A DNA stretch of 33,748 nt, taken from NCBI GenBank assembly GCA_017417385.1, contig JAFPZF010000034.1, positions 1-33,748 of the forward strand, read 5' to 3'. The position numbers and the translations under genes were made by a program. Position 1 is the first letter of the stretch, and every line of letters begins with the position of its first letter. The notes under the pieces were generated by a model. The model was not told where the DNA came from and did not search any database. It worked only from the letters and a program-made list of their open reading frames with translations. The stretch is from Bacteroidales bacterium. GTDB taxonomy: Bacteria > Bacteroidota > Bacteroidia > Bacteroidales > Marinilabiliaceae. This document shows positions 2,409-31,414 of the stretch, one piece after another.

Positions 2409-2416
2409 TAACTTTG
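2409..2416 (+). promoter_or_regulatory. Bacteroidota -7 box before the lipoprotein operon
   Basis: TAACTTTG matches TAnnTTTG, 37 bp before the ATG at 2453. No clear -33 TTTG was found at the right distance. Confidence 0.45.
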
Positions 2417-2452
2417 CGGGGTGGAAAAAGATAACCGATTAGTAGGTACATA

Positions 2453-2707: not shown

Positions 2708-2720
2708 TAACAATTTAGAT

Positions 2721-3431: not shown

Positions 3432-3446
3432 TATGCCAGATTAGCA

Positions 3447-3893: not shown

Positions 3894-3899
3894 AGCAAG

Positions 3900-4649: not shown

Positions 4650-4657
4650 TTGTTGAT

Positions 4658-6904: not shown

Positions 6905-7384
6905 ATGAAGATAGACGGTCGGAGGGTAGATAGCATACTATTTGTCTGTCTCGGGAATATCTGTCGTTCACCGGCGGCAGATGCCGTCATGCGGAAGAAG
7001 GCGGCAGAGAGGGGACTGACAATCTCGGTAGATTCGGCGGGCATAGGGCCGTGGCATGTCGGGCAGTTGCCGGACAGCAGGATGAGGCGATGCGGGGCGA
7101 AGCACGGGTATAACATCAATCACATAGCGAGGCAGGTCAAGGCTTCGGACTTCGAGCTGTATGACGTCATAGTCGGGATGGACGGCGAGAACATGGCGGC
7201 GTTGACCAGGATGGCGAAGCAGAACGGGGCGGACGCTGGGCGGATAGTGTGCCTCGCGGACTACCTGACAGAGAGCAGGGAGTATACGACAGTCCCAGAC
7301 CCGTATTATGGAGACGAGGAGGATTTTGAGATAGCGCTACGGCTGATAGAGGAGGCGGTAGATAATTTGCTTGCTCAGGAGTAG
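6905..7384 (+). CDS. Low-molecular-weight protein-tyrosine phosphatase
   Basis: 159 residues. The P-loop VCLGNICRSP gives the CX5R signature (nucleophile Cys and Arg), and VPDPYYG carries the general-acid Asp of the DPYYG motif. The ATG at 6905 is preferred over upstream in-frame codons because those lie inside the beta-helix gene and the family begins just before the P-loop. LMW-PTPs dephosphorylate tyrosine-phosphorylated proteins, often in exopolysaccharide control, or act on small phosphomonoesters such as arsenate-type substrates. It is probably co-transcribed with the beta-helix gene. A hairpin between this gene and the convergent porX ends the transcript. Confidence 0.92.
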   Translation: MKIDGRRVDSILFVCLGNICRSPAADAVMRKKAAERGLTISVDSAGIGPWHVGQLPDSRMRRCGAKHGYNINHIARQVKASDFELYDVIVGMDGENMAALTRMAKQNGADAGRIVCLADYLTESREYTTVPDPYYGDEEDFEIALRLIEEAVDNLLAQE

Positions 7385-7420
7385 ACAAGAGAAAACAAAT
7401 AAGACATTATAAGACGAAAT

Positions 7421-7466
7421 AAGGAGTCCGTCCTTTCTGGCGAGGGTCAGGAAGGACGGACTTCTT
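7421..7466. terminator. Bidirectional hairpin between convergent genes
   Basis: A 15-bp stem (7421-7435 with 7452-7466, one G-T pair) encloses a 16-nt loop containing ggcgagggtc. It ends with short T-rich stretches on both strands and lies between the stops of the phosphatase gene (+) and porX (-). Confidence 0.75.
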
Positions 7467-7490
7467 ATAACCTAGAGAATAGACGTCGGC

Positions 7491-9059
7491 CTACTTGTTC
7501 TTTTTAGCCTTGAGCGTAGCTAGGGGGAGAATCATCTCCTCCATAGATATGCCGCCGTGCTGGAAGGAGTCCTTGTAGACCCTGACATATTCGTTGCGGT
7601 CGTTAGGGTAGACGAAGAAGCCGTCGTTGTTGGCGAAGACGAAGGAGGAGGCGACGGAGCTTGTCGGGAGGCCGATGTCCTCCGGCTTCTTAGCCTCGAT
7701 GACAGTCTTTTTGCTGAGGGCCTTCTCGTAGTCCATATTCTTGCCCGTCTTGTAGCGGAGATTCGTATTGAGCTCCCTAGGGCCCTTGATGTCGACAGGG
7801 TCGGAGACGCGAATCGTGCCGTGGTCGGTAGTCAAGATGATAGTATAGCCCTTGCTAGCCATGAGTGAGAGCGTCTCGTGGAACTTGCTATGCTTGAACC
7901 ATGAGAGGGTGACGGAGCGGTAGGCGGCGTCGTCGGTGAGGAGGTCTCTCATGACGTTGTTGGTCACGCTATGCGAGAGGTTGTCGACGAAGCAGAAGAC
8001 GAGAGCGTTGAGGTCGTTGTTGGCGTAGCCGCCGAACTTCTTGATGTATTGTTCGGCGCTATCGTTGTTGCCGACCTTGTAGTAGGACTGTTTGACGGCG
8101 GACATCTTGTGCCTCTCGAAGTAGTCAGTCAGCAGTTCACGCTCGTATTTGTTGAGACGTTCCTCGGACTCGCTGTCGTCCACCCAGTATTGTGGGACGA
8201 GCTTCTTGATGTCTCTCGGTAGGAGACCCGAGAAGATAGAGTTGCGGGCGTACTGAGTAGCCGTCGGGAGGATGCCGCAGTAGAGCTCCGTCGAGATGTC
8301 GAAATCCTCGGCGAGGATAGGCCTAATCTTCTTCCACTGGTCTAGGCGGAAGTTGTCTATGACGACGAGAGCGACCTTCGTCTTGTTCTTGATAAGCGGG
8401 AGGACGCGTTCGGAGAGAATGCGGTGGGAGAGGAGCGGAGCGGAGGCAGGGTTCTTGATCCACGTCGCGTACTCCTTGTCGATGAACTTACAGAAGTTGA
8501 TGTTGGCCTCTTTCTTGAGGGCGAGGAGCATCTCGTTCATAGTGTCGTCACCCTCGAGGCGGAGTTCCCAGTCGACTATAGACTCGTAGAGCCTGTTCCA
8601 GTCGTTGATATTACGAGAGGTAGCGATGCTGGAGGAGAGCAGCATATTAGCCTGGATGAACTCCTTGTTAGTTGTCTCCCTGACGATGTTCTGTCTTTCC
8701 ATCATCTTAGTCAGGCAGGCGGTCAGTTGCGGGACGCCGACAGGCTTGACGAGGTAGTCGTCGATTTGCTTGCCGAGGGCTGAGGTCATAGTGTCGACCG
8801 CCTCGCTTTTCGTCATCATCACGACAGGGACCTCCGGTTTGAGACGTTTAAGGACAGGGAGGACGTCGAGGCCAGTCATTCCCGGCATTTGCTCGTCGAG
8901 GATGACGAGGTCGAAGTTTTCAGAGGAGAAGGTGTCGATAGCGTCTTGTCCGTTGGTTTCAGTCTTCAGTACGTAGCCCAGATTGCTGAGGAAAACGCTA
9001 TAAGGCTTAGCGAGGGTGTCGATCTCGTCGTCTACCCAGAGAATACGTTTGTTGGCCAT
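7491..9059 (-). CDS. porX: PorX-type response regulator with PglZ phosphodiesterase domain
   Basis: Residues 1-120 are a receiver domain with acidic pocket D10/D11, phospho-acceptor D55 in VILDEQMPG, T83 and K105 (VKPVG). A helical linker follows. Residues ~225-520 are a PglZ domain of the alkaline-phosphatase superfamily, showing VVIDNFRLDQW, LPTATQYARNSIFSGL with the candidate Thr nucleophile, and a metal-binding TTDHGT. The length (522 aa) matches Porphyromonas PorX. In that system PorX is phosphorylated by PorY, works with SigP, and controls type IX secretion genes; the PglZ domain is a zinc phosphodiesterase acting on cyclic and linear oligonucleotides. This fits T9SS-like C-termini on two proteins in the window. 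It is co-transcribed with the small upstream gene. Confidence 0.93.
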   Translation of the reverse strand: MANKRILWVDDEIDTLAKPYSVFLSNLGYVLKTETNGQDAIDTFSSENFDLVILDEQMPGMTGLDVLPVLKRLKPEVPVVMMTKSEAVDTMTSALGKQIDDYLVKPVGVPQLTACLTKMMERQNIVRETTNKEFIQANMLLSSSIATSRNINDWNRLYESIVDWELRLEGDDTMNEMLLALKKEANINFCKFIDKEYATWIKNPASAPLLSHRILSERVLPLIKNKTKVALVVIDNFRLDQWKKIRPILAEDFDISTELYCGILPTATQYARNSIFSGLLPRDIKKLVPQYWVDDSESEERLNKYERELLTDYFERHKMSAVKQSYYKVGNNDSAEQYIKKFGGYANNDLNALVFCFVDNLSHSVTNNVMRDLLTDDAAYRSVTLSWFKHSKFHETLSLMASKGYTIILTTDHGTIRVSDPVDIKGPRELNTNLRYKTGKNMDYEKALSKKTVIEAKKPEDIGLPTSSVASSFVFANNDGFFVYPNDRNEYVRVYKDSFQHGGISMEEMILPLATLKAKKNK

Positions 9060-9074
9060 TATCAGGGAAAGATA

Positions 9075-9374
9075 TTATTCGCCGGCGATGAAAAGAGCGA
9101 CGATGATGATGATGATAGTCGTGAGCGTTGCGATGAGGAGAGTTTTCTTGCTGAGCCCTTGTTTATTAGTGGAAGAGGCGAGTCGTCTTGCGTCGGAGGG
9201 CTCGTGGAAAATAGGGACGCCATTTTCGCGGCAAAGCTTGTCGATGCACTCCTTAGCCTCGAGGGAAGACGCGCCAGTCTCGCCCATATACATGCGATGT
9301 GCGGTCCGGTGTTTTCCTTGTCGGCAGAGAGCGAGACATTGGTCGCGGAACTCTGTGCTTATATTGTTGTCCAT
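9075..9374 (-). CDS. Small tail-anchored membrane protein upstream of porX
   Basis: 99 residues. A helical soluble N-terminal half with regular short helices (FRDQCLALCRQGKHRTAHRM, SSLEAKECIDKLCREN) is followed by one C-terminal membrane helix at ~79-96 (LLIATLTTIIIIIVALFIAG). No signal peptide is seen, so the bulk is predicted to be cytoplasmic. The N-terminal part looks like a ribosomal-protein-L7/L12-type or short-SHOCT-like helical module, but the family is not certain. It ends 15 bp before porX, so the two are very likely co-transcribed, and a role at the membrane together with PorX is possible. Its -7 region on the minus strand (CATATTTG) is one base off the Bacteroidota box. Confidence 0.75.
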   Translation of the reverse strand: MDNNISTEFRDQCLALCRQGKHRTAHRMYMGETGASSLEAKECIDKLCRENGVPIFHEPSDARRLASSTNKQGLSKKTLLIATLTTIIIIIVALFIAGE

Positions 9375-9646
9375 TACAGTATGCTTTTCGTTAGTGTATA
9401 TGCAAATATGCGAAGATTTTTTGATGAATGCAAGAAGGGCGGCATGAAATGGGGAGGGAGGTTAACATAAGACGGGGCTGGGCTAATACAGGTCTAACCC
9501 GAGGGGGAGGGCAGGATAGTGAGATACGGGAGAGGAGAAGGAGCTGAGTAGAGAGGGCGTGGAGAGGAGCGCGAAGAGTGAAAAGGCGGTGGTAGAATTG
9601 TATTTAACTATTATTATAGCTAAATTTGCGACCGCTTATAGGGGTT
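9375..9646. other. Divergent intergenic region, purine-rich
   Basis: No gene is visible between the divergent start at 9374 and ileS. The stretch 9500-9590 is strongly G/A-rich on the plus strand with several GGG runs. The ileS promoter at 9598-9628 follows. Confidence 0.6.
9598..9628 (+). promoter_or_regulatory. Bacteroidota promoter upstream of ileS
   Basis: TTG at 9598-9600, a 20-bp spacer and TAAATTTG at 9621-9628. Transcription from near 9634 would give a leader of about 310 nt that contains a whole copy of the dispersed structured repeat. Confidence 0.7.
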
Positions 9647-9906
9647 GGGGACTTCTATAAATTGCTTTTTCTGCGTTGGCGTTGCCTTCATTCCTAACGC
9701 TCGGAAATAGGAGCAAGCTCCTTTTCTCTCGCTTAATCGGAATGTTGCACTCAACTTTGAAATCCTCATGTACTACAGTACACTCCGGTATTCAAAGTCT
9801 CGTGCGCCTTGGCTTCGCCTCATGTGCTTTCGCTCGGAAATGGGAGCAAGCTCCATTTCGCTCGCTTGATCGCACAAGTGAAAAATCTAATTTCTAGGAC
9901 TTCCCC
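9647..9906 (+). repeat. Dispersed structured repeat, copy A (in the ileS leader)
   Basis: Its ends form an imperfect inverted repeat: gggacttctataaattgc at the left, and the complement of the right end reads ggggaagtcctagaaatta. Inside are hairpins ggagc-aa-gctcc at 9709-9722 and 9838-9858, and a longer palindrome around 9753-9798 (ctttgaa...ttcaaag). No ORF is conserved between the copies. Confidence 0.85.
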
Positions 9907-9943
9907 GCAGAATAAAGGGTAACCACGGATATAAACAGAGCAG

Positions 9944-12900
9944 ATGGCGAAGAGATTTGCAGAATACAAGGGTCTTGACCTGACGAAGACCGCAGAGGAG
10001 ATGGGGCAGAAGTGGACGGCGGAGAGCGCCTTCCAGAAGAGCCTGTCGGAGCGAGAGGGGTATCCAAGTTTCGTCTTCTATGACGGTCCTCCATCGGCGA
10101 ACGGAAAGCCGGGCATACATCACGTCATGGCTCGTGCGCTGAAGGATGCGTTCTGTCGATATAAGACACAGCGGGGCTTCAAGGTGATGAGGAAGGCCGG
10201 ATGGGACACCCATGGACTGCCGGTGGAGCTCGGAGTCGAGAAGATGCTCGGCATCACGAAGGAGGACATCGGCGGTAAGATATCCGTGGACGACTACAAT
10301 GCAGCGTGCCGCAAGGAGGTCATGAAGTACATTGGTCTGTGGGGCGACCTGACGGACAAGATGGGCTACTGGATAGACATGACCGACCCGTACATCACGT
10401 ACGACAACAAGTACATCGAGAGCTTGTGGTGGCTACTCAAGCAGCTGTATGAGAAGGGTTACCTATATAAGGGATATACGATACAGCCGTATTCGCCGGC
10501 GGCGGGCACGGGACTGAGCTCGCACGAGCTGAACCAGCCTGGGTGCTACAGGGACGTCAAGGACACGACAGTCACGGCACAGTTCACAGTCACGAAAGAC
10601 GGGAAGAGCCAGTGGCTCTTTGACAAGTGCGCGGGCCTCCCGCTGTACTTCCTAGCATGGACGACTACGCCGTGGACATTGCCATCGAACACAGCGCTGT
10701 GTGTCGGCGAGAAGATAGACTACGTATTGCTCCACACGTTCAACCCGTACACGGCAGTCGAGGAGATGGTCGTCATGGCGAAGGATCTCGTCGGGACCTA
10801 CTTCGGCGCTGGGGCTAGCGAGGCGGAGATGACATATAAGGAAGGCGACAAGGTCGTCCCGTACAGAGTCGTCGCGGAGATGAAGGGCAAGGAGCTGATC
10901 GGCATCAAGTATGAGCAGCTGTTGCCATTTGCGAAGCCGGACGGCAAGGCGTTTGAGGTCATCAGTGGCGACTACGTCACGACGGCAGACGGTACGGGCA
11001 TAGTCCACATAGCGCCGGACTTTGGTGCGGACGATGCTAGGGTCGCGAAGAACTATGGAGTCGTCCCGTTGATGTTCGTCGACAGGAACGGCAAGGAGCA
11101 GCCGATGGTCGATAAGAAGGGCCGTTTCTACCTCATCGAGGACCTCGACCCCGAGTATGTCGAGAAGTTCGTCGACAAGGCTGCATACGGCGAGTTCGCG
11201 GGCAGGTATGTCAAGAACGCATACGACGAGACGCTGACCGACAAGGATGCGACGCTCGACATAGACCTGTGCGTCAAGCTCAAGAAGGAGAACAAGGCGT
11301 TCAAGGTCGCGAAGCATGAGCACAGCTATCCACACTGCTGGAGAACCGACAAGCCAGTCCTCTACTATCCACTTGACTCGTGGTTCATCAAGACGACGGC
11401 CATCAAGGACAGGATGATCGAGCTCAACAAGACCATCAACTGGAAGCCGAGCTACACCGGCAGCGGGCGCTTCGGCAACTGGCTCGAGAACCTCCAGGAC
11501 TGGAACCTCAGCAGGAGCAGGTTCTGGGGCACACCGCTCCCGATCTGGAGGACAGAGGACGGGCGCGAGGAGAAGTGCATCGGGAGCCTCGAGGAGCTCA
11601 TCGGCGAGATAGAGAAGGCAGTGAAGGCGGGCGTCATGAAGGAGAACCCGTATAAGAACTTCAAGGTTGGCGACATGACGAAGGAGAACTATGACCCGAA
11701 GAACATCGACCTCCACAGGCCGTATATCGACGGAGTCGTCCTCGTCTCGGCGAGCGGTCAGCCGATGCACAGGGAGCCGGACCTCGTCGACGTCTGGTTC
11801 GACAGCGGTGCGATGCCATACGCGCAGTACCACTATCCATTTGAGAACAAAGAGACCCTGCCGTTCCCGGCAGACTTCATAGCCGAGGGTGTCGATCAGA
11901 CGCGCGGATGGTTCTTCACGCTGCATGCCATAGCATCCATGTGCTTTGACAGCGTAGCGTTCAAGAACGTCATCTCGAACGGCCTCGTCCTCGACAAGAA
12001 CGGCAACAAGATGTCAAAGCGACTCGGTAATGCCGTCGATCCATTCGAGGTCATCGAGAAGTACGGAGCGGACGCCGTCAGGTGGTACATGCTGACCAAT
12101 GCACAGCCGTGGGACAACCTCAAGTTCGACGTCGCGGGAGTTGACGAAGTCAGGAGGAAGTTCTTCGGAACACTGTATAACACCTATTCCTTCTTCGCGC
12201 TGTATGCGAACATCGACGGGTACACGGGCAACGAGCCCAAGGTCCCAGTCGCAGAGAGACCGGAGATAGACAGGTGGATTATCTCTCTCCTGAACACCGT
12301 CGTCGCAGAGGCTACCGACGCCATGGAGAGCTATGAGCCGACGAGGGCAGGCAGGGCGATACAGGACTTCGTCATGGAGAACCTGTCGAACTGGTACGTC
12401 AGACTGAACAGGAAGCGCTTCTGGGGCGGCGAGATGAACACCGACAAGCTGGCGGCATATCAGACGCTGCACGAGTGCCTCCTGAAGATCTCGATGCTCA
12501 GTGCACCGATAGCGCCGTTCCTCTCGGACAGGATATACAGAGACCTCCAGGGCGACAGCGAGAAGACAGTACACCTCTCGGAGTGGCCGAAGGCAGAGAC
12601 ACAGTATATCGACAAGCCGCTCGAGGAGAGAATGGACTATGCGCAGAACCTCTCGTCGATGATACTTGCCCTCAGGCGCAAGGTCAACATCAAGGTACGT
12701 CAGCCGCTGAGCAAGATCATGATACCGGCGCCGGACGAGGAGTTCAGGAAGCAGCTCGAGAGAGTGCAGAACCTCATCTTGACCGAGGTCAACGTCAAGG
12801 AGCTGCAGTACATCTCGGAGGACGAGGGCGTATTGAAGAAGAGCATCAAGCCGAACTTCAAGACACTCGGTCCGAAGCATGGCAAGCTGATGAAGCAGAT

Positions 12901-19094: not shown

Positions 19095-20867
19095 ATGAAA
19101 AGGAGTTATCGTCTACGGACAATGATTTTTGCGCCGTTTATCGTGTTGCTTATGATATTCATAGCTGTAGCGGTCTCGACGTATGTGATAGTAAAAAAGG
19201 ACGTTCTAGCGTTGCAGTCTCAGACGCTGTCGAACACGATACAGGCGATCAGCTATTCGTTGGCAGACACGCGCATCGACACGCGATCGACAGCGATGAT
19301 GGTGAACGAGGACTATCAGGAGCTATACGAGTACATAGCGAACGAAGACTTGGCCGGGATAAGCGATGAGTTTTCTTTTCATATCAAGACGTCGAGGCAG
19401 GACGGATATGCGTTCTTGACCGTTGATGGTCGTCTGCTCTCACACACGGAAGGCGAGTACAATCTCGAGCAGCTAAAGAAGTATGCAGAGATGGCGTCAG
19501 AGGCCGAGGAACATGTAGTGTCGGGCAGTGACGTGCTTCTTGGGAACAGCGTCTGTGAGTTCACGGCGTGCCAGATGTTCAACAACGAGAAGGAGTTCAT
19601 CGGGACCGTCTTCATAGTGGGGATGGTGATAAGCGACGAGAAGACGATAGAGAGGATCAAGACAGAGGTAGGCTCGGAGGTGCTGATGTTTGACAGGGAG
19701 AAGTGCATAGGGACGACATTGGCGAAGGACAAGGGCGACATTGTGCTGGATCCAATTATACGCGCTGAGGTGTTTGACAAAGGCGAGCGTTTTGTCGGGA
19801 AGAGCGACATGCTCGGGAGTGATGGGTTGTATGCGGCGTTGCCATTGAAGTCGCCGAAGGGGGAAGTCGTAGCGTGCGTGCTTGTCAAGAGCGACACGAG
19901 CATAACCGACAAGATGTTAGGACTGCTTTATTCAGGAGTTCCGGTAGTCGTGCTGATAGTATTAGTTATCTCGGTGATGTTGTTCAGGGACGTCATGTAC
20001 AGGATAATCATGCCGATAGGACAGCTGGACGAGCAGTTGCAGGTCATAGCGACGGGCGACATGCGTCAGACGACGTCGGTAAAGACAAAGTGCAAGGAGA
20101 TACTCTCACTTGAGGAGAGCGTCGCGGAGATGCAGAACAAGATACGGGGGATAATCAGGCCTATACAGGAGGCCAACAGACACATCAGTTCGTCGGCGTC
20201 GATGCTCTCGACATCGAGTGAGAACCTGTCGAACGCGTCGAACAGGCAGGCGGCATCGCTAGAGGAGATCTCGAGTGCGATGGAGGAGATGAACGCTAAC
20301 ATCCAGCAGAACACAGACAACTCCATTCAGACGAACAAGGTGACGGAGGAGGTGAGCGGACTGATAGGCTCGATGAACACGAGCAGCAGCAACAGCTATG
20401 AGGCGATCAAGAACATAGCGGAGGACATCTCGGCCATCAACGACCTCGTAAGCCAGACCAACATCTTGGCACTCAATGCGTCGGTCGAGGCGGCGAGGGC
20501 AGGCGAGGCAGGCAAGGGCTTTGCAGTCGTCGCGAAGGAGGTCGGCAGACTGGCGGACCAGACGAAGACAACGGCGGACGGCATCACGGAGACGTCGACA
20601 GCATGTATACAGGAGGCTGAGGTCGCATACAACTACGTCCAGCAGGTGCTCCCGAAGATAGAGAAGATCGTCAAGCTCGTCAAGGAGATCACGGCGGCGT
20701 CGGTCGAGCAGAATGCCGGTGTCGGACAGGTGAACGAGGCGATCATCGACCTCAACAAGGTCACGCAGGAGAATGCAGCGGGATCTGAGGAGATAGCGGC
20801 GAGTGCGAGAGACCTCAAGCACATGATAGACGACATGAACAAGGCGATGAATGTATTCAAGGTATAG
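19095..20867 (+). CDS. Methyl-accepting chemotaxis protein
   Basis: 590 residues. TM1 is at ~10-33 and TM2 at ~275-297. Between them is a ~240-residue periplasmic sensor of the Cache type ([17 protein letters not shown] and [20 protein letters not shown] are PAS-like strands). A HAMP domain (~298-350) and a long helical signalling domain follow. The conserved hairpin tip is at ~450-480 ([18 protein letters not shown]...[10 protein letters not shown]). Glu/Gln positions around [10 protein letters not shown] and the C-terminal helix could be methylation sites, but this was not tested. There is no C-terminal CheR-tethering NWETF-type peptide; it ends KAMNVFKV. No cheA/cheW or flagellar genes are in the window. 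The Cache ligand is unknown. Confidence 0.93.
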
Positions 20868-21462: not shown

Positions 21463-24400
21463 ATGATAAGAAGGATACTAATGACATTTGCTGTTGCTGC
21501 CGTCGGGCTGGTGACTCCACAGGTCGTCAGGGCTGAGGGCACGGGGCACACCGTCGATCAGGACGGGACGTGGCACATAGCCAGCACAGAGGCGTGGAAC
21601 GAGCTCGTCGCGGAGTTCAACGGGACGGGGAGTGGGGCCCATAAAGTATGGGACACGGAGGCTCCGGGGTGGAACGTGAACTATCCGGACTTCAAGGTCG
21701 TCCTCGACGCGGACATAGAGGTCAGTCAGTCGGTAGGTACGGCGGAGACACCATTCTACGGGATTTTCAATGGACAGGGGTACACCATCACGTGTAATGA
21801 CGTGGAGCTTGCGCCATTTGCGTACATAGTCACTGGAGCGAGCTGGAATGCATACTCGTCGATACAGAATCTCGTCGTCGAAGGGACGGTGAAGTCGAAG
21901 GGCACGAATGCTGGAGGCCTGGTCGGATTTACGAGTTCGACGTCGTGGGGAGACCAGGGGGCATTTGGCGCTGTCTACATCTACAACTGCAAGGTGGCGA
22001 CAAACATCACAGTCGTGGAGAAGTCCGTGCCAAACGGAGTGTGTGTAGGCGGGATAGTCTGCAACAGTTACAACAGCAGTGTAGGCATCGAGGATAGCGA
22101 GGCGTGTGGCACAATAGATGCTGGGGGAAACTTCGGCAGGTTGGCGCAGGTGGTAGCGACAGGAGAGGCTGAAGGGTCGTGGTTTGAGAGAGTAGTAGGT
22201 AGGACGACTTTTACCAACTACAGCACAGATGGCTACGAGCCGTGTTTCCTTGGAGACGGCATAGATGTGGCGGCAAACGACTGCTATACGACGACGTCGC
22301 AGACGGAATCTGGAGATCCTGGTGACGTGTTCCTTTCACCATTGAAAGAAATGACGATAGAAGGGGCGAAGCGAGTAGCGGCGGGGAAGTTCGACATGGT
22401 ATGTGTAAATTATGATGAAAGTGGAAATTGCACGAAGAGCATAGCTGTACTCCCGAGTCAGGCGAGACTGCACTGGGTACTCAACGAGGACAACAGGCCG
22501 ACACTCTCAACATCGAAAGAGGGCTTGGTCTATTGGGCATACGAGTTCGTAGGAACCAATGCATTCCAGAGAGAACAGCACATCATGAAGGGGGACAACC
22601 TCTCGGAGTTCTTTGCAGACTACTTGACAGAAGATGAAATAGCTGAAGGGCACTCTGTTGTCATCCTGATCAAAGACAAGGGAGTGGTGACAGAGGACAT
22701 GACGGCAGAGGGAGATGTCGAGTACAGGGCGATAAGCGGAGAGGAAGGAGTGACATTGGAAGGGAGCACCGTCGTCATCAACAACGAGTGGGGATGGCAT
22801 GCTTTTGCGAACGCGTGGAACGACGGCTTCTTCGGTGAGAGCGTAGACGTCCGTCTTGGGGTAGACCTGACGAACTTCGACATGGGACAGACGACAGCGA
22901 TAGGCACAGAGGAGCGACCATTCAGCGGACGGATAAACGGAGCTGGTCATACGATAGACTTCGGGCTGACATACGACTACATGAGCGAGACGGAAGGAGA
23001 GGTGGTAGCGCCGTTCCGCTACGTCAGGAACGTAGAGGTAGACAGCCTCGCGCTGAACACAATAGTGGACATGACTCAGTATGACGAGATCCCCGAGGGG
23101 AGGAAGTTGGCAGGACTCTTCTGGCATGCAGAGGGTACGAACACCGTCTCGAACAGTTCGATAGGGATAAGTTTCAACGGCGTCAAGGGCATCGTGGCGG
23201 GCGTCGTTGGCGAGATAGAGAGGGACTCGTACGTCCTGCTGAGCGACGTCCTACTGCCGAATGCAGAGATAGTTGCGCCGAGCATAGAGAGTGGAGACAA
23301 GCATTACGTGTTCTGTGCGGACAAGAAGGGTGCGCTGGCGCTGAACAACTGCTACATAGGGAAGCGATTCCTCAGGAACAGCGACTACACGCAGAACCAG
23401 AACGAGTACGTATTCCAGAAGGAGACAGGGATAACCGCGACGAACACCTACAGCGAGATTGACAACGGGGTGGGCGAGTACGTCATGGAGACGACAGAGA
23501 CACCGAACGGTACGTATGACTCATATTCCACGTTTGCACAAACAGGGGGATTCACGTATGCACTCCAGGGGGGAAGAGAGAACCTTGTATGGGGTCAGAC
23601 CCTAAGCGAGAGTGCGCCGAGTCTGATAGCAGTAGCGAACAAGGATGTACTGGAGAGAGGTGCGAGTGCGTGGAACAGCACCGTGGACGGGGCGTACAGA
23701 GTCCTTGCAGTCAAGTATCAGTATGCGGACCAGGACACGTCGATATATACAAGGGCGGCGAACGGTATCGGCTATTTCAACCAGGCAGAGACGCTGAAAG
23801 TGGCGCCACTGACAGCATTCGGAGTGCCGGAGGAGGAGATAGAGAGAGTCCTCAGGCGTTACATAGTCGGCGGAGAGGCGTTCTACGAGTATGAGGTGCC
23901 GAACATCAGGATAGACAAGGACACGACAGTCTACATCAAGACATACGCGCTCGACATAAAGGAGGAGGGCAATGAAGACGCCGAGGAGCTGAAGCTCTAC
24001 TATACAGGCAAGGCCAAGAAGCTCGTCGCGACATTCAAGGACGAGAGCGGCGAGCCGGCGGAGCTCAAGCCGTATAATCCAGACGAGAAGAGTGGGGACT
24101 ATGAGCTCTCTATACTCGGGGCGGACGGTGCTCCGGCAGACCTCGTCTATCCGGGCGAATATTATGCAGAGGCAGCTGGGCAGAACGACATGATAGGTCT
24201 GACGGCTGGGCAGAGGATAGTCATCGAGAAGGGAGCTTTTGATGTCGAGTATAAGGGCAGCTACATCTACACGGGCGAGGCGCAGCCGATAGAGTACGCA
24301 GTCGTAGATTCCATCACGGGAGAGAAGCTGACGCTCGGCGAGGACTATGCGCTATACGAGAAGACAGGCGAGAACTATACAAGACTGAGCGAGATGCCAA

Positions 24401-26271
24401 AGGTAGAAATGGCAGGCACGTACACTTACGTCGTGAGCAGCGACTTCAGGCTTGACGAGGAATTGATAGGGACCAACATCCCGGTAAGCTATTATGGCAG
24501 CGAGAAGGTGATGGAGATAGTCGTCGGCAAGGGAGAGCTCGTAGCAGCAATCTCGGACAGCGTCTTCACGTACACCGGAGAGGCGATAGCACCGGAGCTC
24601 ACAGTAGTTGACGCGAATGGCGAGGCGCTGACACTCGGCGAGGACTACAGACTCTATGAGGGAGAAGAGGAAGTAAGGGTCATCTCGAAGCACGCGGATG
24701 CGGGCAGATATAGCATAAGAGTCGCAGGCGAGGAAGGCAAATATGAGGCCGACACGACAATAGCATGGCGCATAGCACCGGCAGAGCTCACAGTAGAGGC
24801 GGTAGACAGCATCTATCTGTACAGCGACGCACACGACAGATTCCCAGAGTTCACAGTGAAGGCTGGCGAGAAGGAGCTCACGGCTGGCACAGACTATGAG
24901 GTGAGGGGCGTCGTCGAGCCGCAGACAGAGCCGGGCGAGTATGAGACGACAATAGTCGGAACGGGTAACTATGCGGGCAGCCACACCATACATTGGGGCA
25001 TAAGTGAGCCGCTGAAGGAGCTAATAGTCGATGATGCAGAGTCGTTGCTCGACGTCTTTGCGACAGTCGGCAAGGAGGACGGATACCAGTTCGTCGAGGA
25101 CATCAACCTCACGGAGGATGTCGATATGAAGCAGGTCGAGGTAGATCTCGAGAAACTCTCGCACTCGAACGTAGGCGACGTCTTCAGTGCGCTCTCGTCG
25201 ATAGCCGAGATAGCGGGCAACTTCAACGGAAACAGCCATACCATCTCGAACCTCGTCGCGACGGCAGCGGGCCTCTTCGACAAGGTCAGCGAGAGCGGGA
25301 CAGTCTCGAACATCCTCGTGCAGGATGCAATCTTCTATGTCGATCCGACGAACAGCAGATGGGAGGAGCGCAACGACACAATCTTCGTCTATGTCGTAGC
25401 GGGCGAGAACAGCGGACAGATCACGAACTTCGGCTTCACGGGCAAGGTCGTCATCGACGAGAAGATGATACCAGCGGGCAAGGTCGTAGTAGTCTCGCTT
25501 GTCGGGGAGAACAAGGCGGGAGCTACGCTGAGTGGATTCTTCTATGACACCGACATCGAGGCGGCGACGGGTAACAAGAGGTGCATCACCATCAAGCAGA
25601 ATATCGGTTGCGCGAAGAACAGCGGCAGGGCTAAGGTGGCGAGCAGCTCGAGCAACCAGAACAAGGCGTTGAACAAGAAGTATGACTACAGCGAGGAGGA
25701 GGTCAACAAGATGGAGAGGACCTTCACGGCGGACGAGTTTGCGAGCGGAGCAGTAGCATACTGGCTGAACTGGAGCGAGCAGGGCTATACCGGCGAGTAC
25801 AAGCCGATATGGAGGCAGGGCGAGAAGTATCCGGAGATGGCGATAGACGTCGATGGCGTCGTGAATGCGCTGTACAAGGTGAACTACGTCATCAACGACG
25901 ACAAGAACATCGTCGATGCACCAGTATTCGCGAACAACGGCGACAAGATAACCGTCACGTATAGCGAGAAGCCTGAGGCCGTCATGGTCGGCGAGGAGAA
26001 CGTCAAGTTTGGCGAGAAGAGCTTCACCGTAGTCTTTGACGCGACGAAGTCGGTGACGATAAAGTTCAAGGAGACAAACGCCTTGATGACGGCGGACAAG
26101 GCAGGGATAGAGGTCGTCGGACGGACGATAATAGCACCGGCGGGGACCGTAGTATACACACTTAGCGGATTGCCAGTCGGGGTCAGTGACGGAACATCTA
26201 TCGCAGTAACGTCGCCGGGCATCTATCTTGTCAAGAGCAAGATAGGAGTCGCGAAGGTGGCAGTCAAGTAA
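21463..26271 (+). CDS. Large secreted repeat protein with MBG-like domains and T9SS-like tail
   Basis: 1602 residues with a signal peptide (FAVAAVGLVTPQVVRAEG). Residues ~30-520 and ~1185-1330 contain GLUG-like beta-repeat material (NLVVEGTVKSKGTNAGGLVG; NGAGHTIDFG; NFNGNSHTISNL), a type found in adhesins. Residues ~925-1180 form three MBG-type Ig-like repeats of ~80-90 aa, each opening with a Y(I/L)YTGEA-like strand and a T(L/A)GEDY motif. The last ~70 residues (YTLSGLPVGVSDG...GIYLVKS...KVAVK) resemble the T9SS type A sorting domain, fitting the PorX gene nearby. It is probably an outer-surface or secreted adhesin-like protein. The substrate or target is unknown. There is no catalytic domain that I could recognise. 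Confidence 0.8.
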   Translation: MIRRILMTFAVAAVGLVTPQVVRAEGTGHTVDQDGTWHIASTEAWNELVAEFNGTGSGAHKVWDTEAPGWNVNYPDFKVVLDADIEVSQSVGTAETPFYGIFNGQGYTITCNDVELAPFAYIVTGASWNAYSSIQNLVVEGTVKSKGTNAGGLVGFTSSTSWGDQGAFGAVYIYNCKVATNITVVEKSVPNGVCVGGIVCNSYNSSVGIEDSEACGTIDAGGNFGRLAQVVATGEAEGSWFERVVGRTTFTNYSTDGYEPCFLGDGIDVAANDCYTTTSQTESGDPGDVFLSPLKEMTIEGAKRVAAGKFDMVCVNYDESGNCTKSIAVLPSQARLHWVLNEDNRPTLSTSKEGLVYWAYEFVGTNAFQREQHIMKGDNLSEFFADYLTEDEIAEGHSVVILIKDKGVVTEDMTAEGDVEYRAISGEEGVTLEGSTVVINNEWGWHAFANAWNDGFFGESVDVRLGVDLTNFDMGQTTAIGTEERPFSGRINGAGHTIDFGLTYDYMSETEGEVVAPFRYVRNVEVDSLALNTIVDMTQYDEIPEGRKLAGLFWHAEGTNTVSNSSIGISFNGVKGIVAGVVGEIERDSYVLLSDVLLPNAEIVAPSIESGDKHYVFCADKKGALALNNCYIGKRFLRNSDYTQNQNEYVFQKETGITATNTYSEIDNGVGEYVMETTETPNGTYDSYSTFAQTGGFTYALQGGRENLVWGQTLSESAPSLIAVANKDVLERGASAWNSTVDGAYRVLAVKYQYADQDTSIYTRAANGIGYFNQAETLKVAPLTAFGVPEEEIERVLRRYIVGGEAFYEYEVPNIRIDKDTTVYIKTYALDIKEEGNEDAEELKLYYTGKAKKLVATFKDESGEPAELKPYNPDEKSGDYELSILGADGAPADLVYPGEYYAEAAGQNDMIGLTAGQRIVIEKGAFDVEYKGSYIYTGEAQPIEYAVVDSITGEKLTLGEDYALYEKTGENYTRLSEMPKVEMAGTYTYVVSSDFRLDEELIGTNIPVSYYGSEKVMEIVVGKGELVAAISDSVFTYTGEAIAPELTVVDANGEALTLGEDYRLYEGEEEVRVISKHADAGRYSIRVAGEEGKYEADTTIAWRIAPAELTVEAVDSIYLYSDAHDRFPEFTVKAGEKELTAGTDYEVRGVVEPQTEPGEYETTIVGTGNYAGSHTIHWGISEPLKELIVDDAESLLDVFATVGKEDGYQFVEDINLTEDVDMKQVEVDLEKLSHSNVGDVFSALSSIAEIAGNFNGNSHTISNLVATAAGLFDKVSESGTVSNILVQDAIFYVDPTNSRWEERNDTIFVYVVAGENSGQITNFGFTGKVVIDEKMIPAGKVVVVSLVGENKAGATLSGFFYDTDIEAATGNKRCITIKQNIGCAKNSGRAKVASSSSNQNKALNKKYDYSEEEVNKMERTFTADEFASGAVAYWLNWSEQGYTGEYKPIWRQGEKYPEMAIDVDGVVNALYKVNYVINDDKNIVDAPVFANNGDKITVTYSEKPEAVMVGEENVKFGEKSFTVVFDATKSVTIKFKETNALMTADKAGIEVVGRTIIAPAGTVVYTLSGLPVGVSDGTSIAVTSPGIYLVKSKIGVAKVAVK

Positions 26272-26636: not shown

Positions 26637-27560
26637 TCAGGAGAGGAGCTGGAAGAGGCGGGAGTCTTGATATACGAGAGGTTTAGTGTGAGCAAAGAAG
26701 ACCGAGGCGTCAGTCGGAGCCTCGATTCGTTGGAGAGTTTCTCCGTTGAGCGGGTCGAGAATTTGAGCGAGGCAGTCGCCACGTCGGACAGACTGCCCGA
26801 CAGAGCAGTGGAGATAGAGGATGCCAGCCTCGGCGGACTTGACCGTCAGGAGTCGGCTCTCATCGAAGGTTTCGGAGCGGTAGGCAGGGCCGACCTTGGC
26901 GTGAGTGGCGCCGATGCTGTTCGTGAAGCGGAGGACAGACTGCCAAGTCAGTTTAGCCATGTCGTGGTGGATAATATCAGTACTGCCGCAGTAGACGGAG
27001 TAGGCGGAAGTCCCGAAGACTTGCCAGTTGTAGTTGAGCACAGTGGTGTCGTAGGGTCGAGGTTCGTATAGTAGGACGTAAGGGAGTCCGAAGGCGTCGG
27101 CGTGGCTAGTATCCTCGTAGCCAGTGTGCATGATACGGACGTGAGGGACGAAGTTGCCGTTCATATAGTAGGAAGCGAGCTGGACACCCCAGTGGTAGTC
27201 TCGGACAGCGTCGAAGATAGCTTCGGCGATACGTTGAGTCGTCTCGCCATCGCCGTAGCCAGGGAACATACGGTTGATATCCGTATTGTCCATCGTCCAG
27301 AAGCGTTTCATGACGTTGAGGGAGAAGGGATTGGCGGTCGGGATGACAAGGATCCCGTGTTCTGGTGATAGATTGCCGTCAGCCTCCATTATACGCAGGT
27401 TCTTGACGATTTGCGAAGCGACGTAGAGTTGTTGAACCTCGTCGCCTCTAAGGCTACCGACGATGGCGATAGACTTCTCACGTGGTCCGAAGTGGTAGCC
27501 ACGGATGATAAAGTCGCCCCTATAAGGAGAGGGCATCCTCATGATCTCTAAAGTCTCCAT
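26637..27560 (-). CDS. AstE/aspartoacylase-fold protein lacking catalytic residues (pseudoenzyme)
   Basis: 307 residues, paralogous to the next gene upstream in the operon. The fold-defining pieces remain: VGSLRGDEVQQ, PTANPFSLN, DINRMFPG, and a C-terminal beta/biotinyl-like region (LHCSVGQSVRRGDCLAQI). The zinc and catalytic residues do not. The HxxE His is R38 (SLRGDE), the second zinc His is A129 (VQLASYY) and the catalytic Glu is Tyr in SVYCGSTD. D40 and E41 and the NR pair at 96-97 are kept. It is therefore predicted to bind but not to cleave substrate. It is last in the minus-strand operon, 13 bp after its active paralogue. A scaffold, regulatory or heterodimer partner role is inferred. 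Confidence 0.85.
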   Translation of the reverse strand: METLEIMRMPSPYRGDFIIRGYHFGPREKSIAIVGSLRGDEVQQLYVASQIVKNLRIMEADGNLSPEHGILVIPTANPFSLNVMKRFWTMDNTDINRMFPGYGDGETTQRIAEAIFDAVRDYHWGVQLASYYMNGNFVPHVRIMHTGYEDTSHADAFGLPYVLLYEPRPYDTTVLNYNWQVFGTSAYSVYCGSTDIIHHDMAKLTWQSVLRFTNSIGATHAKVGPAYRSETFDESRLLTVKSAEAGILYLHCSVGQSVRRGDCLAQILDPLNGETLQRIEAPTDASVFFAHTKPLVYQDSRLFQLLS

Positions 27561-27573
27561 AAGAAAGATGTGC

Positions 27574-28506
27574 TTAACCGATAGAAAAGATACGGGCGAT
27601 GAGAGAGCCCTCGTAGACGACGGGGTAGCCTCTCATCGTGAAGAGGAAGCCGTTGACGGGAGCCATGACCTCGGCGAGGGTGATGCCACGGAGAGGGTCG
27701 GTGACGATGCAGAGCGTCTCTCCCGCCTCGACCCAAGAGCCGTGGGAGGCGATAGAGATGACGACGCCGGAGGCAGGGGAGTTGATCATCGAGACGTGGC
27801 CGGCAGTCGATACGAAGGGTGTCGAGACCTCTCTCTGTGCGTCTTCGGATATGACGCCGAGGTGGGTGAGAGCGTTCATGATGCCGTTGACGAGTTTATT
27901 GCCGTAGCCTGGTGTTATCCTCATGCCAATGCCCATTTCGACGACGACAGTTGGAGTTCCGATAGAGTTGAGGCTATGTGCGATAGTGCTTTCGAGGACA
28001 GTAGCTGCGGCGTGTACCCAGACGAAGTCGACGTTGAGTTGCTGAGCGAAGGGCATGAGACGTTCGGCCGTCTCCTCGCTCATGCGTACCTGGGGGACCT
28101 CGTAGAGATAGATATTACTGCTATGGATGTCGATAACGAGGTCGGCGCCCTTGAGGTCCTCGATGACGTCGTGGGCTACCTTTTCGATGACGTGGCCGTC
28201 TGTGCAGCCCGGGAAGATACGGTTCATATCGAGGTCGAAAGTCGGTATGCCGCGGAATACCGAGTCGACGCCGAGGGGGTTGAGTGCGGGATAGATTTCA
28301 ATGCGGCCGTTGATATGGCCGGAGAAGTCGTTGAGGAGGCGAGCCAGTTCGTAGCAGACGTACTGACCTTCGAGTTCGTCGCCGTGGATGCCCGTGACGA
28401 TGCAGACGCGAGGTCGAGGCTTATCGCCGATGACGTGCTTCGAGATATTGAGGTTCTCGAGGACGGGCATTTTCTCGTTGACGACAGCCAGAATTTTGCC
28501 TTCCAT
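27574..28506 (-). CDS. AstE/aspartoacylase-family amidohydrolase (active-site complete)
   Basis: 310 residues of the succinylglutamate desuccinylase/aspartoacylase family (M14-like zinc carboxypeptidase fold). The zinc ligands are H41 and E44 in TGIHGDELEG and H128 in VIDIHSSN. The catalytic Glu is E190 in VVVEMGIG. DMNRIFPG (93-100) supplies the substrate-binding Arg. The C-terminal part has a barrel-like beta region (GHVSMINSPASGVVISI). The family hydrolyses amide bonds of acylated amino acids or small peptides. The ATG at 28506 (MEGKILAVVNEKMP) is chosen over 28560 because the latter overlaps the transglutaminase gene. It lies 16 bp after the transglutaminase stop. Confidence 0.9.
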   Translation of the reverse strand: MEGKILAVVNEKMPVLENLNISKHVIGDKPRPRVCIVTGIHGDELEGQYVCYELARLLNDFSGHINGRIEIYPALNPLGVDSVFRGIPTFDLDMNRIFPGCTDGHVIEKVAHDVIEDLKGADLVIDIHSSNIYLYEVPQVRMSEETAERLMPFAQQLNVDFVWVHAAATVLESTIAHSLNSIGTPTVVVEMGIGMRITPGYGNKLVNGIMNALTHLGVISEDAQREVSTPFVSTAGHVSMINSPASGVVISIASHGSWVEAGETLCIVTDPLRGITLAEVMAPVNGFLFTMRGYPVVYEGSLIARIFSIG

Positions 28507-28522
28507 AGTAGTCGTAAAAAGA

Positions 28523-29296
28523 TTAAAGACGTTGTTCGTTCCAGACTTCGACAGAGACACGCATAGACTGAGAAGCGCAGCCCGAGAAAGAGCCTCGGCA
28601 CATACTACAGTCGTCGAAGTCTCTGCCGTGAGCGAATTTGATGTAGCCCACGTCGGTTGTTGTCTTGCCGTTGGTCGGGTCGAAAGCGATCCATTTGTCG
28701 GAGTCGAACATTTCGACCCAGGCGTGAGACTCGCCGTGACCGATCATAAGACCGCAGACGTAGCGTGCGTGGAAGCCGGCGAGCCTCAGGAGAGCGACGG
28801 CGATGTGCGCGAAGTCCTGGCAGACGCCTACGCGTCCGTTCCAGGCTGCTGCGGCCGTCGTGTTGATGTTGGTGAACCCGCGTTCGTAGTGCATATTGTC
28901 ATAGAGGAGCGAGGTTATGGAGGCACGTGTCGCGGCGGGGGAGGAGGTGTCTAGGGAGCGGGCGGCGCGGCGGAGGTCGTCGGAGGGGGCGGTGAGAGGC
29001 GTCGGGTATAGGTAGATAGAGTCGGGCGTCGTGTCTGGTGAAGGGGAGGATTCGACGAGGCCGGCGGACTCGTAGGCGAAGAAGTCGTGCCTCATAGGGG
29101 CGTAGCCCGTCAGGAGTTCGTTGCCGAAGGCGTCTCGGGAGCGGGAGAGGGGGACGGAGGGTATGACAGAGACCTGTTCCCACAGCACCTTCTGAGAGGG
29201 GCATCTCATCGGGACGCAGCGGAGAGCGAAGCCGTGGGAGGACACAGGGCTATCTGTCGTTATAAGCGTCGAGTATATGAAGCGGAGGCGAGTCAT
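28523..29296 (-). CDS. Transglutaminase-like cysteine protease
   Basis: 257 residues with an N-terminal Transglut_N beta domain (RFIYSTLITTDSPVSSHGF) and a transglutaminase-like core. The triad is visible: Cys in VGVCQDFAHI, His in ESHAWVEMF and Asp in IAFDPTNGK. The C-terminal RGSFSGCASQSMRVSVEV matches the usual RG-x-Y-x-G ending of bacterial members. Enzymes of this fold break or make amide bonds; the bacterial group is thought to act mostly as a protease or amidase. Its ATG overlaps the alpha-E stop (ATGA), so translation is coupled. In known Anbu-type loci the same order of ATP-grasp, alpha-E and transglutaminase occurs. Confidence 0.93.
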   Translation of the reverse strand: MTRLRFIYSTLITTDSPVSSHGFALRCVPMRCPSQKVLWEQVSVIPSVPLSRSRDAFGNELLTGYAPMRHDFFAYESAGLVESSPSPDTTPDSIYLYPTPLTAPSDDLRRAARSLDTSSPAATRASITSLLYDNMHYERGFTNINTTAAAAWNGRVGVCQDFAHIAVALLRLAGFHARYVCGLMIGHGESHAWVEMFDSDKWIAFDPTNGKTTTDVGYIKFAHGRDFDDCSMCRGSFSGCASQSMRVSVEVWNEQRL

Positions 29297-30000
29297 GCGG
29301 CGAAGATGCCATTGAGACGTAGGAGGATATCGCTCTTCGCATTGCAGTCAGGCTCGGCGACCTTGCATCGGAGGGCGTCGAGAGTAGCCTTGTCGCAGAG
29401 GTTGAGGTAGTTCTCGTCGGCGTCGGCGATACGTTCGAGTTCGTTCACAATGCGAGCAGTGTCGTAGCCGAATCTGATGAGGAGGTCAGCTCGTTCGACG
29501 CTTCGTCCGATAGCGATCAGGTCGTGAATGCAGCGGTAGCGGATATTCTCTCCGACTGCGCCCCAGAAGGCCATGACAGCGTCCGTCACGCTCTGCAGTT
29601 CGTAGAGACCGGCGCCACGTGAGGCGCAGTCGCGTGCCTTGTTGCAAGCCAGTTCGATATAGGCGAGAGTCTCGCTGCCGATGTCGTCACGCTCGAGCAT
29701 CGCGTTGTTCTTGAGGTTCTCGAGAGTCGAGAAGATAGACCAGGGGAGGGCGCGGGAGTAGAGGTAGTCGGCGAGGAAGGTCTCGGAGTCGGAGGTAGGA
29801 GCAGGGAGCCCCATGAGGGCGCAGAACTCGTGGTGGACAGTGCCCGTCGGGCAGTCGATCATCCTATTGTAGAACTTGCGGATGAGGTGGAGAGACATGC
29901 AGACCCTCTCGGCGTAGCGGCCGAGCCAGTAGAGGCGGTCTGCCCTCATAGGGGAGATGGCGCCACTCTTCATGATGGTGGTAGTAGTTGTTGTCTTCAT
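29293..30000 (-). CDS. Alpha-E domain protein
   Basis: 235 residues, almost all helical. It begins with RADRLYWLGRYAERV, the usual opening of alpha-E proteins, which are fixed companions of circularly permuted ATP-grasp genes. ERDDIGSETLAYIELACNKA and GRSVERADLLIRFGYDTARI are other family-like helices. No enzyme activity is known; a role as partner or substrate holder of the ligase has been proposed from gene context. The start may be the ATG at 30000, 29973 or later. The Thr-rich first nine residues (MKTTTTTTI) are not family-like. The gene follows the ATP-grasp stop by 41 bp. Confidence 0.88.
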   Translation of the reverse strand: MKTTTTTTIMKSGAISPMRADRLYWLGRYAERVCMSLHLIRKFYNRMIDCPTGTVHHEFCALMGLPAPTSDSETFLADYLYSRALPWSIFSTLENLKNNAMLERDDIGSETLAYIELACNKARDCASRGAGLYELQSVTDAVMAFWGAVGENIRYRCIHDLIAIGRSVERADLLIRFGYDTARIVNELERIADADENYLNLCDKATLDALRCKVAEPDCNAKSDILLRLNGIFAA

Positions 30001-30041
30001 GGTGATAAGTATTTAGAAATTAGTTGATAAGGTGTGGTGTG

Positions 30042-31379
30042 TTATTCAGAGAGGACCCAGGTATCCTTGAAGCCGCCGCCCTGTGAGGAGTTGACGACAT
30101 AGGAGTCCGGGTTGCGGGTGAAGCGGGTGAGTCCGCTTGGCCAGACGTCGACGTCTCGGCCAGTCAGGACGAAGGCCCGGAAGTCGCTCTTACGCTTGAC
30201 AACCTTGTCGCCGTCCATGACGTCGAGGTCGAGGAACTCGACGATTTCCTGAGCGATCCATCGACGGGGGTCTTTCTTGATGAGGTCGATCATCTCGGCA
30301 GTACGTTCGCGGGAGAGGTCTCTGCCGAACATGACGCCGTAGCCGCCAGCCTCGGAGACGTCCTTGATGACGAGGCGGCTGATATTGTCGATGACATAGC
30401 TGCGGTCTTCGTCGAAGACGGGGAGGTAGGTTGGAGCGTTCTGGAGGATCGGGGACTCGCCGAGGTAGTATTTGACCATCTTCGGGACGAAGTAGTAGAT
30501 CCCCTTGTCGTCGGCGACGCCGTTGCCGAAGGCGTTCATGATGCAGACGTTGCCGGCGCGGTAGGCCTCGAAGATGTTGGGTACTCCGAGGAGGCTATCG
30601 CGATTGAAGGCCATAGGATCCATGAACTCGTCGGAGATACGGCGGTAGATGACAGAGACGCGGGTCTTCTCGCCGTGGAGACTCTTGTAGAAGACCATAT
30701 TGTCTTCGACGAAGAGTTCGTCAGGGAAGGCGAGGACCGTTCCTGTCTTTTCGGCGAGGTAGGAGTGCTCAAAGAAGGCAGAGTTGTAGCGTCCTGGGGT
30801 GAGGACGACCGTGATTCCGGAAGATATGTTCATATCGTCCATGACCTTGCGGAGCAAAAGAGCGTAGCCACGGTTGTCGATGATGTTGGAGCCCTCGAAA
30901 GTTTGCGGGGAGGACTTGCGAGTCAGTTCGCGGGCGATAATAGGGTAGGAGGCACCGCTAGGGACTCGCAGGTTGTCTTCGAGGACGTACCATACTCCAC
31001 CTTCGGCCTCGACGAGGTCGATGCCAGAGATGTGACTAAAGACGTCGTTGACGGGTCTGATGCCGTTGCACTGAGGGAGAAATCCTTTAGAGGAGAGGAT
31101 GAAGTCCTCAGGGATGACCTTGTCCTTGACGATCTTCCTGTCTCCATAAACGTCAGCGAGGAATGCGTTGAGGGCCATGACCCTTTGTCTGAGTCCGCGG
31201 CTCAGGTAGGACCAAGTATTGTTGTCTATGATACGAGGGATTGCGTCGAAAGGGAAGAGCTGTTCGTTGAACACACCGTTTTTATAGACGCCGAATCGTA
31301 CGCCGTATCGTTCCATCCATTTGTCGACGATATCGCGGCTGCGCAATAACGTCTCGTAGCTGTTTCTCGTCTCACCCAT
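30042..31379 (-). CDS. Circularly permuted ATP-grasp ligase (type 2)
   Basis: 445 residues. Family motifs are visible: YVLEDNLRVPSGASY near the middle, YNSAFFEHSYLAEKTG, DEFMDPMAFNRDSLLGVPN, and the C-terminal NSSQGGGFKDTWVL. ATP-grasp enzymes join a carboxylate to an amine through an acyl-phosphate. This subclass is permuted and is predicted to make peptide or amide bonds on small molecules or protein termini; substrates are not established. The ATG at 31379 is preferred to 31409 because the minus-strand -7 box overlaps the latter. It is the first gene of the five-gene operon. Confidence 0.92.
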   Translation of the reverse strand: MGETRNSYETLLRSRDIVDKWMERYGVRFGVYKNGVFNEQLFPFDAIPRIIDNNTWSYLSRGLRQRVMALNAFLADVYGDRKIVKDKVIPEDFILSSKGFLPQCNGIRPVNDVFSHISGIDLVEAEGGVWYVLEDNLRVPSGASYPIIARELTRKSSPQTFEGSNIIDNRGYALLLRKVMDDMNISSGITVVLTPGRYNSAFFEHSYLAEKTGTVLAFPDELFVEDNMVFYKSLHGEKTRVSVIYRRISDEFMDPMAFNRDSLLGVPNIFEAYRAGNVCIMNAFGNGVADDKGIYYFVPKMVKYYLGESPILQNAPTYLPVFDEDRSYVIDNISRLVIKDVSEAGGYGVMFGRDLSRERTAEMIDLIKKDPRRWIAQEIVEFLDLDVMDGDKVVKRKSDFRAFVLTGRDVDVWPSGLTRFTRNPDSYVVNSSQGGGFKDTWVLSE

Positions 31380-31406: not shown

Positions 31407-31414
31407 CAAAAGTA
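31407..31414 (-). promoter_or_regulatory. -7 box of the ATP-grasp operon
   Basis: On the minus strand it reads TACTTTTG, a match to TAnnTTTG, 28 bp before the chosen start at 31379. A -33 TTTG was not seen. Confidence 0.5.

Follow-up and report, generated by a model that had tools for sequence, protein, structure and literature searches.

The window analyzed in this study is contig JAFPZF010000034.1 in its full length of 33,748 nucleotides, one of the 97 contigs of the 3.6 Mb genome of a Bacteroidales bacterium assigned to the Marinilabiliaceae (GCA_017417385.1). Its minus strand carries five closely spaced genes (31379..26637) with stop-to-start gaps of 41, -4, 16 and 13 bp, which code for a circularly permuted ATP-grasp ligase, a short Alpha-E protein, a transglutaminase-fold protein and two proteins of the AstE/AspA family, here called AstE1 and AstE2. 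This set is a real and conserved operon, a variant of the operon type that contains the proteasome-like protein Anbu, and it is marked by an AstE pair of which one member is predicted to be live and the other dead. Layout, spacings and families had been proposed in an original prediction made from the sequence alone, and they were borne out by the gene coordinates and by Pfam searches.

Genes of the operon

The first gene (30042..31379, minus strand) encodes a predicted carboxylate-amine ligase of 445 aa that matches CP_ATPgrasp_2 (PF14403, E = 4.7e-134) and CP_ATPgrasp_1 (PF04174, E = 1.1e-123). With 447.5 bits against a curated cut-off of 32 and positions 1-373 of the 374 profile positions covered, the protein belongs to the PF14403 family, and the best solved chain is 3n6x_A (E = 9.9e-127). 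In an alignment from six genomes the mean column identity was 79%, and the candidate motifs that we take to bind ATP and metal were invariant. The second gene (29293..30000, minus strand) codes for the Alpha-E protein of 235 aa, which matches PF04168 (E = 3.5e-20, 73.3 bits against a cut-off of 20.8) over positions 6-165 of 294 only. This range is nearly identical in the other six genomes with a short Alpha-E. The AlphaFold2 model (pLDDT 88.0) consists of helices only, and no solved relative of the protein was found by sequence.

The third gene (28523..29296, minus strand) encodes a papain-like protein of 257 aa with matches to Transglut_core (PF01841, E = 9.6e-17) and Bact_transglu_N (PF08379, E = 5.5e-7). 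Its Cys159-His191-Asp206 triad, intact as predicted originally, is invariant in six genomes. Relatives were also counted over 80 loci of named records, the best 80 of 410 confirmed relatives, and weak fragments were excluded from the residue counts (below 230 bits for AstE1, 400 for AstE2 and 150 for the transglutaminase). The triad cysteine is present in 73 of 74 copies (one Ala), and the histidine and aspartate in all 73 readable ones. The last two genes encode AstE1 (27574..28506, minus strand, 310 aa; the profile search used 27574-28509) and AstE2 (26637..27560, minus strand, 307 aa), which match AstE_AspA_cat (PF24827) with E-values of 4.4e-24 and 3.6e-10, respectively.

The AstE pair

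The first histidine and the glutamate of the HxxE motif, a second histidine and a further glutamate are assigned here as the zinc and catalytic residues, presumably as in AspA and AstE. AstE1 has all four (His41, Glu44, His128 and Glu190), and they are kept in 76 of 76, 76 of 76, 77 of 77 and 78 of 78 readable copies, as expected for a zinc amidohydrolase. AstE1 thus shares both the family match and the full residue set with the AstE/AspA family, which includes succinylglutamate desuccinylase, aspartoacylase and DoeB, and its nearest solved chains are 2qj8, 3cdx, 6twm and 6twl. It scored 72.6 bits against the DoeB equivalog TIGR02994, far below the cut-off of 402.7 bits, and did not match the AstE equivalog. 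AstE2, which lacks the zinc site, reached 26.7 bits for DoeB and 19.4 bits against a cut-off of 305.65 bits for AstE.

In AstE2 of the window, Arg38, Ala129 and Tyr190 stand at the site positions. The first zinc histidine is replaced by Arg in all 80 loci, the second by Ala (74), Pro (3) or Ser (3), and the catalytic glutamate by Tyr (76), Phe (3) or Cys (1), so that the zinc amidohydrolase site is absent. All 80 loci retain the glutamate of the HxxE motif and an Asn-Arg pair. In an alignment of up to 81 sequences, AstE2 has 57 positions that are at least 98.5% conserved, and all 81 aligned sequences share Arg38, Glu41, Asn96, Arg97, Ser130 and His140; the Asn-Arg pair is kept together with strictly conserved residues around the predicted former site. 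The mean pLDDT of the predicted AstE2 model was 81.9, with residues 79-93 weak.

A tree of 163 rows placed all AstE1 proteins in one group and all AstE2 proteins in another (SH-aLRT 90 and 99), and in both the window sequence stands beside that of locus L032. The branches between the two groups are very long, so that the tree settles neither the root nor the age of the split, nor whether the two are closest kin. A recently decayed pseudogene was considered for AstE2 and ruled out by the open frame, the 57 near-invariant positions and the single tree group.

Since neither the two zinc histidines nor the catalytic glutamate are found in AstE2 at any of the 80 loci, the pair is read as an enzyme with a non-catalytic relative. 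Judged by its residues, AstE2 is very probably dead as a zinc hydrolase, and AstE1 is the only member of the pair that is predicted to be able to act as one. The original prediction had given the hydrolytic arm to both proteins, which fits AstE1 with its intact site but not AstE2; the loss of the AstE2 zinc site and the link of the neighborhood to ammonium assimilation had been missed.

Conservation and distribution of the operon

For the order, 295 genomes were searched with AstE2, and matches above 300 bits were taken as full-length orthologues. These were present in the window genome and five others, and a partial copy lies at a contig end in genome G293. In five of five relatives the genes for ATP-grasp, Alpha-E, transglutaminase, AstE1 and AstE2 follow in this order on one strand. 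Alpha-E was found by Pfam in 11 of the 295 genomes, of which seven have the short form (the six genomes with a full-length AstE2 and G293), three the long form and one a partial match.

Among the loci of named records, which overlap with the order sample in at least three cases (L034, L048 and L081 match contigs of G018, G002 and G055 in length), the complete order on one strand was found in 67 of 80. This number is made up of 65 loci together with L032, where the ATP-grasp is split into two ORFs, and L049, which has extra weak hits; genes clipped at contig ends were counted as present (L052, L110 and L111). Ten of the remaining 13 loci run into a contig end close to the operon (L041, L047, L053, L054, L056, L057, L082, L089, L097 and L098). 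L095 has no ATP-grasp or Alpha-E gene upstream, and in the cut locus L101 from a sheep-rumen Bacteroidales bin (1524-4848) about 3.3 kb separate the transglutaminase gene from AstE1. In L096 from a Tannerella bin (7023-12221), AstE1 and AstE2 lie on one strand and are faced by the genes for transglutaminase, Alpha-E and ATP-grasp on the other. With this operon split into two facing halves, the AstE pair acts as a separate module.

The four junctions of the 67 complete loci have, in turn, gaps of at most 60 bp in 54, 60, 58 and 58 cases (start codons estimated). The expectation that the AstE pair would be conserved with the ligase was confirmed in a gene-neighborhood survey, and chance proximity of the five genes is ruled out by their shared order. 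A sixth conserved gene is likewise ruled out for ORFs of at least 80 aa, as no flank cluster occurs in more than nine of the 80 loci.

The promoter box of the original prediction is present as a candidate -7 box TACTTTTG (31407..31414, minus strand), 35 bp before the ATG of the ATP-grasp gene. It fits TAnnTTTG, which we take to be the Bacteroidota -7 promoter element. The box is weak evidence on its own because the window contains 12 matches vs. 8.0 expected, and the motif was found within 200 bp upstream of the operon in 41 of 67 loci vs. 12% of mononucleotide shuffles (start codons estimated). A terminator-like site 3′ of AstE2 on the minus strand was not found in a simple scan, whose counts are near chance.

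Strain-named carriers that are not marked as metagenome bins include Prevotella sp. P2-180 and P5-92, Bacteroides ilei Marseille-P3208 and Parabacteroides distasonis An863, and the live/empty AstE pairing spans records named after several bacterial families. The whole operon or part of it was also found in bins outside Bacteroidota, with a G + C content of up to 61%, namely in Mailhella/Desulfovibrionaceae (L057, L062, L063, L073, L076 and L079), Treponema/Spirochaetaceae (L056, L069, L086 and L095) and Fibrobacterales (L068). Horizontal transfer is the likely explanation, or else these are mis-binned contigs.

The AstE pair in the slot of Anbu

Proteasome-family and AstE genes were surveyed in 66 genomes, comprising the 11 Alpha-E genomes of the order sample, all 37 of the same class and 18 of 105 of the same phylum. 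No match to the proteasome family (PF00227) was found in any of the seven short-Alpha-E genomes (G000 and six others), although a very divergent Anbu could escape such a search. For 50 of the 80 named loci of the AstE type the genomes were scanned, and 45 have no PF00227 match. The other five, which are bins under the names Treponema, Spirochaetaceae or Mailhella, have a match of the strength of HslV (E = 3e-22 to 2e-27), counted regardless of its place relative to the operon. Across the genomes searched, an Anbu-like gene was thus not detected beside the operon, in line with the original prediction.

Distances to Alpha-E were counted in 65 genomes (G572 was left out, and the partial match of G184 was counted as long form) and are approximate, as flank genes were taken as stop-to-stop ORFs. 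An AstE gene lies within 6 kb of Alpha-E in seven of seven short-Alpha-E genomes and in 0 of 58 others, whereas a proteasome-family gene lies within this distance in none of the seven and in 18 of the 58 long-form genomes. In the remaining 40 of the 58 neither gene was found near Alpha-E, so that the AstE pair is not the sole route to lacking a detectable Anbu.

For comparison, 20 loci with a long Alpha-E were fetched, in which a weak PF00227 match beside Alpha-E, scored without an Anbu-specific model, was called Anbu-like. Five of them (L153, L155, L156, L157 and L159) read ATP-grasp, Alpha-E, transglutaminase and Anbu-like gene, as expected from the proposed recurrence of the first three genes with Anbu, and three of these (L153, L156 and L157) belong to the same bacterial order as the window. 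In six others (L151, L152, L154, L158, L160 and L161) the Anbu-like gene directly follows Alpha-E, and in the remaining nine of the 20 none could be placed. The AstE pair therefore occupies the slot of Anbu, given the absence of Anbu matches and the gene order of the Anbu-type loci from the same order.

In the ATP-grasp tree, all 66 rows of the AstE type group in a single clade, apart from the 15 others, with 100/100 support (L032, L052, L111 and the cut loci L156 and L157 were excluded, and L152, L165 and L166 had no ATP-grasp hit). The median length of Alpha-E is 232 aa in the AstE type (n = 69) vs. 317.5 aa in the comparison loci (n = 20). The Anbu-type operon thus agrees with the present one in its first three genes and their order, but contains Anbu instead of AstE1-AstE2, a longer Alpha-E and ATP-grasps from outside the AstE-type clade. 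The exchange of Anbu and AstE looks long-standing.

Genomic neighborhood

The nearest flank ORF of at least 120 aa within 3 kb on each side, cut to 500 aa, was used for a family count, which yielded 138 flank proteins. The commonest neighbor is an ammonium-transporter (Amt) gene, found beside nine of the 80 loci vs. 0.48 expected, a value derived from copy number and the bases in the flanks under random placement and uncorrected for kinship. In four loci, Amt lies 8-62 bp upstream on the same strand. A 2-oxoacid:ferredoxin oxidoreductase subunit is encoded by the next gene after AstE2 in L087, L089 and L093, and in L107 a gene for this enzyme lies upstream of the ATP-grasp gene. Glutamate-synthase domains occur in two of the 138 flank proteins; an assignment of glutamate synthase to the flanks of L039 and L040 proved wrong, as these are PIF1-like helicases. 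Proteases are missing from the 25 most frequent of the 178 flank families, which agrees with the original expectation that relatives have no adjacent protease, and a conserved flank protease was rejected accordingly.

Proteins with FGE-sulfatase and DinB_2 domains are encoded near the operon in a Bacteroidetes bin (L044:9569-11068) and in a Paludibacter bin (L049:9573-11072). In the window, a protein of 1602 residues, whose start resembles a signal peptide and for which Pfam gave no match at E 0.001, is encoded just past the 3′ end of the operon (21463-26271, plus strand). Further genes of the window encode a PglZ domain fused to a response regulator receiver (7491-9059, minus strand) and a methyl-accepting chemotaxis protein with an sCache domain (19095-20867, plus strand). 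To our knowledge, the latter is unusual for a Bacteroidales genome.

Discussion

That the operon builds and trims an amide-linked product, as first proposed, is plausible. In our reading of the whole, to which we give an even chance, it encodes a cytoplasmic, nitrogen-linked amide cycle that is a variant of the Anbu-type operon, with AstE2 as the non-catalytic partner of AstE1. The ATP-grasp ligase, served by the short Alpha-E protein as an adaptor or carrier, would activate a carboxylate with ATP and join it to an amine or amino acid. The transglutaminase-fold protein might transfer or open the amide via Cys159, and AstE1 would finally release the free acid and the amine. AstE2 is predicted to bind no catalytic zinc and would most likely serve AstE1 in a heteromer, by gating or by sensing a ligand. 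We infer this chemistry and its amide product, and likewise a control by nitrogen in these bacteria.

For the Anbu-type operon, the available passages of PMC6376114 describe a four-gene set of unproven role, with tested Anbu proteins lacking peptidase activity and an ATP-grasp of Y. bercovieri that frees phosphate from ATP. According to parts of PMC7801951 (see also PMC5666114), the P. putida Anbu operon PP_2685-2688 was placed under NtrB/NtrC during nitrogen limitation. An ntrC mutant of B. cenocepacia showed a 6-9 fold drop for a cluster that comprises DUF404/407, DUF403 and two transglutaminase-like genes, and Anbu is not listed for this cluster in the passages at hand (PMC5491218). AstE-annotated enzymes have been described, in an excerpt of PMC10206079, as isoaspartyl dipeptidases that act on dipeptides from cyanophycin and cleave beta-Asp-Arg; in cyanophycin breakdown such an enzyme opens an amide-linked dipeptide of a nitrogen store. 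Cyanophycin synthetase and cyanophycinase families were found in none of the 25 proteins scanned, all from the window.

The Rim/Rlo systems, as outlined in sections of PMC12239564, also combine a ligase with an opposing hydrolase in one operon, and Rlo adds a transglutaminase-fold protein. In Rlo, however, the transglutaminase is inactive, whereas that of the window keeps its triad and AstE2 is the protein that has lost its catalytic residues; moreover, Rim/Rlo use another ATP-grasp family and a retropepsin-like protease. No retropepsin family was found among the five operon proteins and 20 other window proteins scanned. A description of such an AstE pair with an ATP-grasp was not found among the listed matches of searches in open-licence papers, which do not include the main survey of such operons (Iyer et al., 2009), where neighbors of this kind may be mentioned.

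Several points weigh against the nitrogen-linked amide cycle. Amt is absent from the examined flanks in 71 of the 80 loci, the single Amt match of the window genome sits on another contig, and by kinship on the tree the nine Amt loci come down to about four groups (P of roughly 0.0015 for four). In the portions of PMC6376114 at hand, Y. bercovieri Anbu showed no specific interaction with the other operon products, and in those of PMC7801951 the P. putida Anbu gene PP_2685 changed little (1.12, 4.81 and 1.45 fold), with its three neighbors up 11-37 fold.

Protein tagging has been suggested for the Anbu operon in work to which PMC6376114 refers. In such a system, the ATP-grasp of the present operon would add amino acids to target proteins like RimK, AstE1 would trim the tag and AstE2 would be the substrate-binding arm, but we consider this unlikely. 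The strictly conserved residues that AstE2 retains without the catalytic set would suit such an arm; the ATP-grasp, however, matches only circularly permuted families and 3n6x, and no RimK-type family. In addition, the AstE/AspA enzymes among the model and structure matches act on small N-acyl amino acids. It is less likely still that AstE2 has been repurposed, with Arg38, Glu41, His140 and Asn96-Arg97 forming a new zinc-free or differently metallated active site. Six residues invariant in every aligned sequence exceed the apparent needs of a mere scaffold, but AstE2 has lost both His and the catalytic Glu of the family site, and we know of no AstE/AspA protein that is active without these residues.

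A dedicated pathway for a secondary metabolite, a modified peptide or an osmolyte, e.g., an N-acyl diamino acid, that would be independent of nitrogen supply appears improbable. The nearest named model is indeed DoeB of ectoine breakdown, albeit with the low score given above, but the most frequent flank cluster is the ammonium transporter and none is more widespread, although a small precursor peptide could escape the length limit on ORFs. Finally, the view that both AstE-like proteins are hydrolases that trim the product together, for which the tandem genes and the shared PF24827 match speak, can be practically dismissed, as not one of the 80 loci encodes an AstE2 with the zinc histidines and the catalytic glutamate.

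The amide cycle with AstE2 as partner of AstE1 can be carried further, to an amidohydrolase that is an obligate heteromer, with a dead subunit that would sense a nitrogen-bearing ligand and gate the live one. Gut bacteria would then run a new reversible amide-linked nitrogen reserve, with Anbu exchanged for a metabolite hydrolase. This extension is rather a long shot; if it were true, Anbu, too, would seem to be no protease but to work on a small conjugate.

The exchange of Anbu for a metallohydrolase of a small-amide family points to the possible task of the whole system, whose hydrolytic arm would then have a small amide, and no proteins, as its substrate. A predicted live enzyme that is constantly paired with a catalytically empty relative across families makes a clear biochemical target. 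Many gut Bacteroidales carry this fixed set of five genes, by which an amide compound with nitrogen would probably be made and broken.

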